DNA of 44,421 nt from the IMG/VR virus record IMGVR_UViG_3300032282_002981, positions 1 to 44,421 of that record; one strand, given 5' to 3'. Under the pieces are notes generated by a model. It did no database searches and was not told the origin of the DNA. It was given only the letters and a program-made list of their open reading frames with translations. The position numbers and the translations under genes are program-made. The DNA comes from a virus. Shown here in pieces: positions 1,075-2,190 of the stretch (position 1 is the stretch's first letter; the number at the start of each line of letters is the position of its first letter).

Positions 1075-2058
1075 TTAGGCCTGAGTCTTACGTTCACGGA
1101 TCATCTTGAGGATGTCGTCAACATTGGTCTTCTTGCCTTCTTCCTTGGGAGCTTCTGCTGGAGCAGCCGCTACTGGAGCAGGAGTTGGTGCTGGACGAGC
1201 AACTGGAGTAACTGCTACTGGCTCATCATCTGCATCAATATCAGGTGTTGCCGCCGCACGTGCCGGGCTGTTGCCGCCGCCGCCTGAGCGATAGAATGAG
1301 CCCCAACGGTCCTGGTCAAACAGTTCACCGTTGACACTTGCTTCAAACATTTCCTTGATAAGCACCAATTCATCCTTGCTAGGACGCTTTGGCATAAAGT
1401 CGTTCAAGTTGAACAAACCATGCTTCTGGACTGCTTCAAGCTCTTGCTCGTTGAGACCACGTTCCTTACGTGCCCAGTTGGACGTAGAGTAGTCAGCGTA
1501 CTGACCCTTAGTGGTCTTGATAAGACGGAAGTCCGTACCGTTCATGTAGTCGGTTGGGATATTTTCCATCTCTGGATCCATCAATGCACCCTTAATGATA
1601 TTAAAGATTGATGGATTGATAATGAACCTACGGATAGGATTCTCTGGTTCGCTGTCTTCGTTAAGCGGATTGCTTACAACGAAGCCTTGGAAAATGTACG
1701 AACGCTTCTTCCAATACTTGCGACCAAGATCCTCAAGGCCCTTGTCCTTGAACCAAGGACGAACCTCTGCTAGAATTGGACACGCATCTCCCCACATTTC
1801 AACGCAAGGGACCTGAACGCCAATTGCTCGGCCTTCGTCACCACCTTTAACGCCTGGGAATGGCAAACGGATCATCTGACGTTCGAGCCAGAAGAATGTG
1901 TTGCTTGCATCACCATCGGGAAGGAATCGGATTGTTGCTGTAGTGCCTTCTGGGATGTTCCAGAAAGGATAAATGGCTGAGTCGCCACCTCCGGACTTGC
2001 CGCCGGACTTTTGTTCTTGCTCTTGTAGACGAGCACGGATTTCTGCTAATGAGGCCAT
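1075..2058 (-). CDS. gp32: gp32 single-stranded DNA binding protein
   Basis: Cooperative ssDNA binding protein of the phage replisome and recombination machinery. The 327-aa length is close to T4 gp32 (301). Seen: basic N-terminal helix (MASLAEIRARLQ), an OB-fold core with YPFWNIPEGTTATIRFLPDG near residues 30-49, and VPCVEMWGDACPIL at 83-96, where T4-type proteins carry the zinc ribbon. Only Cys85 and Cys93 are visible there, so the full T4 His-Cys-Cys-Cys zinc site is not obvious. The C-terminal third is a Pro/Ala-rich linker after DIDADDEP, ending in a basic helix (DDILKMIRERK) and not in the strongly acidic tail of T4. Start supported by TTAGGAG upstream. It has its own promoter and a repeat-rich leader. 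Confidence 0.92.
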   Translation of the reverse strand: MASLAEIRARLQEQEQKSGGKSGGGDSAIYPFWNIPEGTTATIRFLPDGDASNTFFWLERQMIRLPFPGVKGGDEGRAIGVQVPCVEMWGDACPILAEVRPWFKDKGLEDLGRKYWKKRSYIFQGFVVSNPLNEDSEPENPIRRFIINPSIFNIIKGALMDPEMENIPTDYMNGTDFRLIKTTKGQYADYSTSNWARKERGLNEQELEAVQKHGLFNLNDFMPKRPSKDELVLIKEMFEASVNGELFDQDRWGSFYRSGGGGNSPARAAATPDIDADDEPVAVTPVARPAPTPAPVAAAPAEAPKEEGKKTNVDDILKMIRERKTQA

Positions 2059-2069
2059 GGTTTGTTTCT

Positions 2070-2131
2070 CCTAAGTTGTGCCTAAGCTGCCTAAATGTTG
2101 CCTAGAGTGCAGTCGCTTCTAGCGAAAGCAC
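2070..2131 (-). promoter_or_regulatory. gp32 mRNA leader: 5' hairpin plus TAGG repeats (putative autogenous operator)
   Basis: On the minus strand the predicted transcript begins at about 2131 with an imperfect hairpin: GTGC (2131-2128) and TCGC (2125-2122) pair with GCGA (2116-2113) and GCAC (2110-2107), with a 2x2 internal loop and a TAGAA apical loop. After it come four copies of (T/C)TAGG(C/A), with cores at 2101-2105, 2090-2094, 2081-2085 and 2070-2075, spaced 9-11 nt; the last is the Shine-Dalgarno AGGAG. T4 gp32 is known to repress its own translation by binding cooperatively from a 5' pseudoknot along a short repeat array into the ribosome site; this leader has the same plan with a different repeat. 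The operator function is inferred. Confidence 0.6.
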
Positions 2132-2137
2132 ACGTGT

Positions 2138-2166
2138 AGTATATGCTGTATGTCTCTGTATGTCAA
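2138..2166 (-). promoter_or_regulatory. Host sigma70-type promoter of gp32
   Basis: Minus-strand -35 TTGACA (2166-2161), 17-bp spacer, -10 TATACT (2143-2138). The expected start, about 7 nt downstream at 2131, coincides with the first base of the leader hairpin. Confidence 0.85.
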
Positions 2167-2190
2167 CGAGTGTATTTACCGAAAGGTAAC

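Follow-up and report, generated by a model that had tools for sequence, protein, structure and literature searches.

A 5' hairpin and GGC(A/U) repeats precede gp32-family single-strand DNA-binding protein genes in a jumbo-phage clade: a candidate autoregulatory operator

The locus

The window analysed here covers positions 1-44,421 of IMG/VR record IMGVR_UViG_3300032282_002981 (44,421 nt), and the leader and gene under study lie on its minus strand. The gene (1075..2058, minus strand) encodes a 327-aa single-strand DNA-binding protein (SSB) of the gp32 family, which is assigned to PHROG 1192 (phrog_1192, E 7e-62). An AlphaFold (AF2) model, for which the input was the window SSB with 49 relatives and the mean pLDDT is 82, matches the RB69 gp32 core (2a1k; E 7e-10, TM 0.73 by target length) and T4 gp32 (1gpc; E 1e-8); all six structure matches at E <=0.001 are gp32 structures. 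A search of the PDB by sequence only, with the SSB alignment, returns nothing relevant. The family and model matches together uphold the first-pass annotation of this DNA, which had named the gene behind the leader as gp32.

Upstream of the SSB gene, the window encodes a member of a virion-protein PHROG and a T4-type terminase. Genes for terminase, structural protein and SSB are likewise consecutive in most of the cultured jumbo phages examined, with a RecA/UvsX-type gene soon after; the exceptions are SCTP-2 and some stretch ends, in which not all of the genes are present. By SSB, Sinorhizobium phage Phosso is the closest cultured relative (62% across 82% of the protein), and the SSB of the PA5oct group stands at 56% against that of the window. 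Two invariant cysteines, C85 and C93, are kept throughout the SSB clade, and its C-terminus forms a conserved helix that carries basic residues (IRERK), where T4 gp32 has a charged, Ser/Asp-rich tail. The zinc residues of T4 gp32 are given as Cys77-X3-His-X5-Cys-X2-Cys90 (PMC535899). Because both the cysteine pattern and the C-terminal helix differ, the zinc site and tail of the clade may differ from those of T4 gp32.

The predicted sigma70 promoter of the gene consists of a -35 element, TTGACA (2161..2166, minus strand), and a -10 element, TATACT (2138..2143, minus strand), separated by a 17-nt spacer. The +1 position predicted from this sequence is G 2131, and the whole predicted 5' leader, from +1 to the gene start, is 73 nt long (2059..2131, minus strand). 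It begins at +1 with a 25-nt hairpin (2107..2131, minus strand), built as GUGC / UU / UCGCU / AGA loop / AGCGA / CU / GCAC, that is, 4 bp, a 2x2 internal loop, 5 bp and a 3-nt loop. The hairpin folds at -11.1 kcal/mol with a z-score of -3.23, and 1 of 200 shuffled sequences folds equally well; the first-pass annotation had described promoter, start and hairpin accurately.

Four TAGG repeats follow. Three have the form TAGGCA (2099..2104, 2088..2093 and 2079..2084, minus strand), and the fourth, TAGGAG (2068..2073, minus strand), doubles as the Shine-Dalgarno sequence. Their starts at 2104, 2093, 2084 and 2073 give steps of 11, 9 and 11 nt, confirming the 9-11 nt spacing into the ribosome site that had been noted earlier. 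A cluster of four TAGG within 48 nt occurs just once over the two strands of the window taken together, against 0.01 expected per shuffled strand, and shuffling the 48-nt tail of the leader yields at least four TAGG at a frequency of 5e-5. Leaders of 39 genes in the window were scored, and that of gp32 alone has four TAGG or three GGC[AT]. The tail forms weak competing pairs (tail-only z -0.5, mean unpaired probability 0.59). Adjacent CUUAGG units within 2059-2106 are able to pair via G-U wobbles, which would hide the Shine-Dalgarno sequence; relatives whose flanks differ show no such pairing.

A possible T4-type late promoter motif, GTAAATA (2173..2179, minus strand), of a motif class enriched upstream of genes, lies further upstream, and no strong hairpin follows it in the window. 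A search of the window and eight loci against Rfam release 15 gives no match at or above the gathering cut-off of any family.

A small pseudoknot had also been suggested, in which the apical TAGA of the hairpin pairs with TCTA (2106-2103). This pairing is possible on paper in the window. Over 38 leaders, pairing between the loop and downstream sequence is 3.47 against 3.41 when shuffled, with at least 4 bp in 17 of the 38 where 41% are expected. The complementarity is thus at the level of chance, and the pseudoknot was rejected as a conserved element.

Conservation of the repeat array

The first set of relatives comprises 80 IMG/VR loci with SSBs 56-67% identical (best segment), plus the window; two of these 81 loci have less than 70 nt upstream of the gene and were dropped, leaving 79 usable leaders including that of the window. 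TAGG itself does not hold as the conserved unit, being present in two or more copies in just 25 of the 79 leaders, and the unit was therefore recast on this set as GGC[AT]. At least two GGC[AT] are found in 69 of the 79 gp32 leaders and in 11 of 220 leaders of other genes from the same loci; for at least three, the counts are 39/79 and 1/220. The other 10 gp32 leaders of the set have fewer than two. The consensus unit reads A/U, GGC, A/U and a stretch rich in A. Most neighbouring units are 9-17 nt apart, in a spacing that varies widely, from 6 to >30 nt.

Since the motif had been defined on the first set, held-out loci were collected in three further scans. These supplied 159 new loci, of which 6 were dropped for having less than 70 nt upstream and 153 were usable. 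At least two GGC[AT] are present in 140 of the 153 held-out leaders, and in 63 of 70 once similar leaders are removed; non-redundant counts are given because the loci came from protein similarity and many are related. One locus with a misplaced start (L137) is a miss in the held-out count and is excluded from the hairpin analyses below. The repeat noted in the window is therefore kept in relatives, with (A/U)GGC(A/U) in place of TAGG as its conserved core. That core contains GG and is not UUAAA, in agreement with the earlier remark that the repeat is unlike the T4 array.

The gp32 leader was also compared by GGC[AT] score with all leaders of its own record, a procedure that replaced a pattern scan of 15 records with many coding matches. 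No other leader equals the gp32 leader in the window or in record G001. One other leader has as many units in each of G002, G004 and G010, and two have as many in G009 and in G012; the gp32 gene of G012 lies outside the retrieved pieces, and the leader of L013 was used instead. The gp32 leader is not outstanding in G003, where four other leaders equal it, or in G006, where fifteen do; in G006 it has one GGC[AT] unit in its last 60 nt.

In a protein tree built on 137 rows, one long, well-supported branch splits the full set of 114 GGC leaders, along with 15 others, from the RaK2-, 121Q-, BF- and XaC1-type phages. The GGC label requires 11 changes on this tree, against 21.7 with shuffled labels. 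As read from the tree, the array is a mark of the whole clade, with some losses, rather than of the window phage alone. In a small group of leaders (L077, L195, L203, L288 and L039), the usual array is missing and a GACCATCT- or GACACCATGTC-like sequence precedes the Shine-Dalgarno sequence, possibly as a replaced operator. The gp32 genes start with ATGGCA in 175 of 239 cases and with ATGGCT in 37 of 239, so the start-codon region is itself a GGC(A/T) unit, which may reflect a conserved Ala2 alone.

Hairpins at predicted transcript starts

Neither the loop nor the stem of the hairpin is conserved in sequence; what is conserved is its location relative to transcript starts, all of which are predicted from sequence. 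Folding was scanned in 30-nt windows along 57 first-set leaders, and a sigma70 score of at least 5.7 was required for tests at +1. The fold peak lies at the predicted sigma70 start, with a mean z of -1.54 at -6 against -0.08 for 26 control promoters of the same phages, and past +6 the leaders have almost no structure (mean z about 0). In held-out loci, the signal at the sigma70 start is weaker (z -0.59 at -6 and -1.13 at 0; n=42 of 72), and the stronger peak, at -18 (z -2.05), is a late hairpin.

A T4-type late-promoter motif, with a hairpin at the late start, is a feature absent from the first-pass annotation and stands before most gp32 leaders; a second fold peak of the first-set leaders, upstream of that at the sigma70 start, belongs to it. 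On the sense strand, ATAAATA is 15-fold and TAAATA 8.6-fold denser within 120 nt upstream of a gene than elsewhere in the non-coding DNA of 9 records, and for the related phage CBB the late promoter has been proposed to be ATAAATA (PMC5259590). Of 81 gp32 loci, 56 carry NTAAATA between -160 and -40, and the hairpin directly after it has a z of -2.29, compared with -0.64 in controls (first set). In held-out loci, the motif is present in 63 of 72 leaders, against 20% of shuffled leaders, and the hairpin z is -2.48.

A stem of at least 6 bp is located at the sigma70 start, the late start or both in 98 of 116 non-redundant leaders, and stem and at least two GGC units occur together in 89 of the 116. 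The first-pass annotation had made its reading depend on hairpin and repeats being kept in close relatives, as these counts show them to be. Set against controls that are few (26 sigma70 promoters; 25 or 33 late ones), the stem is present at the late start in 81 of 93 leaders (33% when shuffled; 16 of 33 control late promoters) and at the sigma70 start in 46 of 76 (3 of 26 controls).

The arrangement can be duplicated within one leader. In L011, the order is late motif, hairpin, ACATGGCA, sigma70 -10, second hairpin, ACATGGCA, ATGGCA and Shine-Dalgarno sequence. A GGC(A/T) lies just before the sigma70 -10 element in 14 of 14 loci of the subclade with weak covariation described below, to which L011 belongs, against 1 of 42 other first-set loci; being upstream of the sigma70 start, this unit would be carried only by the transcript started upstream. 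Hairpin and GGC units together look like a module placed behind each promoter. In L012, L050, L069, L074, L076 and L212-L264, the late hairpin is preceded by an A-tract and followed by a T-tract, and the sigma70 -10 element is in or near its loop, so that the promoter is nested in a terminator-like hairpin.

Selection on the RNA

Stems with one internal mismatch, chosen by a selection that does not favour G-U, were used to determine the strand on which selection acts. The internal mismatches are G-U/U-G in 30 cases, A-C/C-A in 2 and others in 10, whereas the base composition of the leaders alone would make A-C commoner than G-U. This imbalance argues that selection acts on the sense RNA, the 30 G-U events not being independent because related phages share some of them.

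The covariation in relatives that the first-pass annotation proposed to look for is found in one subclade, with 98.6% of cells paired, 14 compensatory cells and 0 of 500 shuffles as high. It is weak in a second subclade, where 93.4% of cells are paired, 37 of 500 shuffles reach the covariation and RNAalifold predicts no pairs, the latter partly because two rows of the alignment (L044 and L071) are misaligned.

Comparison with known systems

In T4, gp32 binding starts at a pseudoknot at the 5' end of the leader and extends across UUAAA/UAAA repeats as far as the ribosome-binding site, and repression needs both pseudoknot and repeats (PMC535899; PMC3014915). Like the T4/RB69 gene 32 operator, the present leader precedes the gene of a gp32-fold SSB and runs from a structured 5' element through short repeats to the ribosome-binding site (PMC535899). 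The two differ in that a pseudoknot of ~28 nt there is a simple hairpin at +1 here, and UUAAA/UAAA repeats there are GGC(A/U) units 9-17 nt apart here. In addition, RNase E cleaves the T4 gene 32 messages at -71 (PMC3014915), whereas here the hairpin is placed at the sigma70 and/or late transcript start. The earlier claim that the leader follows the T4 plan thus stands for the order of parts and falls for the pseudoknot and the UUAAA units. Because tests for these two elements are both negative, the window leader is not filed as a member of the T4 operator class; the best reading of the analysis is that it would work like the T4 gene 32 operator, yet is not of the pseudoknot-UUAAA type.

In the operator of T4 gene 43, gp43 recognises a conserved loop, whereas in the present leaders the sequence of loop and stem is free and a repeat array is present. 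The two are alike in that a plain hairpin before the ribosome-binding site controls a replication gene in T4 (PMC3014915). The STAXI motif is likewise a repeated structured element that is often near SSB genes (PMC2864571), but it consists of tandem pseudoknots in other contexts, and the window and eight loci have no Rfam match. In the literature searched, which covered few subscription journals, no paper deals by its title or abstract with the gp32 leaders of such phages or with a GGC array.

A proposed autoregulatory operator

Across the leaders compared, the layout is conserved and consists of a strong promoter, a hairpin at the 5' end of the predicted transcript and a tail that usually has 2-4 (A/U)GGC(A/U) units up to or into the ribosome-binding site. 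Judged by the same comparisons, this layout is nearly specific to the SSB gene and is selected as sense RNA. Since the parts come in the same order as in T4 and the gene behind them has the same fold, we infer a T4-like logic, and we put at about two in three the probability that the 5' leader of the SSB mRNA is a translational operator for autoregulation. Whenever SSB outstrips the single-stranded DNA available, it would be seeded at the hairpin and would then fill the tail unit by unit, with the GGC units as stepping stones. The Shine-Dalgarno sequence would be the last unit, so that SSB would come to cover both it and the start codon. As single-stranded DNA builds up, SSB would depart from the leader and translation would resume. 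Because the late promoter of most relatives also starts with a hairpin, early and late transcripts could each carry the operator.

An unlikely alternative, and the strongest of those considered, is that the hairpin guards the mRNA against 5'-end-dependent decay while the GGC units help ribosomes to load or serve as sites for some other protein of phage or host, with no self-regulation by SSB. A hairpin at the extreme 5' end whose sequence is free to vary would suit such a role, and AGG is common to the units and the Shine-Dalgarno sequence. The C of GGC, however, does not extend pairing with the anti-Shine-Dalgarno sequence at the 3' end of 16S rRNA. T4 gene 32 mRNA is itself unusually stable (PMC3014915), but a protective role leaves the joint occurrence of hairpin and array unexplained, and GGC arrays are rare in the other leaders of the same phages.

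It is considerably less probable that the hairpins terminate a transcript from upstream and enclose a promoter, the repeats being a separate matter. A T-run follows 26 of 98 stems, and the hairpin of a freshwater group follows an A-tract, precedes a T-tract and holds the sigma70 -10 element in its loop; the remaining 72 stems, that of the window among them, have no T-run, and the stems are anchored at promoter starts. That the repeats are DNA sites (an operator or replication iterons) is hardly credible: direct repeats do adjoin a replication gene, but they lie downstream of the predicted +1, reach into the ribosome-binding site and are variably spaced, and the neighbouring stems, with G-U and hardly any A-C mismatches, point to selection on the sense RNA.

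The autoregulatory operator favoured here bears on how a sequence-indifferent SSB selects its own mRNA, which PMC535899 terms unclear, and on gp32 autocontrol in diverse T4 relatives, for which PMC3014915 calls for study. Recognition of the own mRNA becomes directly testable here, since the layout is fixed, the GGC unit defined and the partner protein known across about 240 natural leaders. The number, spacing and letters of the units can be altered separately from one another and from the hairpin, and cultured relatives, Phosso and the PA5oct group, offer a source of protein and of infected cells. In the leaders collected, many related viruses share the hairpin-and-repeat layout with a repeat unlike that of the textbook T4 operator.

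A broader proposal, which we offer tentatively and rate at somewhat below even chances, is that gp32-type proteins, thought to be nearly indifferent to sequence, recognise in the mRNA that encodes them an RNA code particular to their lineage: GGC(A/U) for the present large clade of jumbo phages, UUAAA for T4 and possibly CAAUAC for cyanophages. The seed would be a hairpin whose sequence is free, rebuilt at each transcript start, early and late.

Leaders of other gp32 lineages

A motif-free repeat test was applied to leaders within and beyond the clade. In the clade of the window, 23 of 78 and 48 of 153 leaders pass, against 41 of 754 controls. Among named gp32 leaders, 5 of 23, including that of the window, pass at p <=0.05 in this low-power test, and T4 fails (p 0.72); the idea that every gp32 lineage has a significant repeat of its own was not upheld, and no general repeat rule is drawn for gp32 lineages.

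In the leader of the cyanophage P-SSM4, the Shine-Dalgarno sequence is flanked on both sides by AATAC units, four in all at a spacing of 9-10 nt (motif-free test p 0.005). The same locus (L344, 200-358) has TTGACA and GATAAATA, both promoter motifs, and a possible hairpin in the gp32 leader. The gp32 leader of Atu_ph07 has TTAGCACAA-like units. The RaK2-type leaders of XbC2, BF, GAP32, CBB and Kaldavass (L085, L086, L091, L092 and L093) have quite different repeats and a hairpin at the predicted +1. In these hairpins, a small internal loop, which is GA/GA in BF, separates an outer stem of 4 bp (or 3 bp) from a short inner one, an outline that resembles that of the window hairpin.
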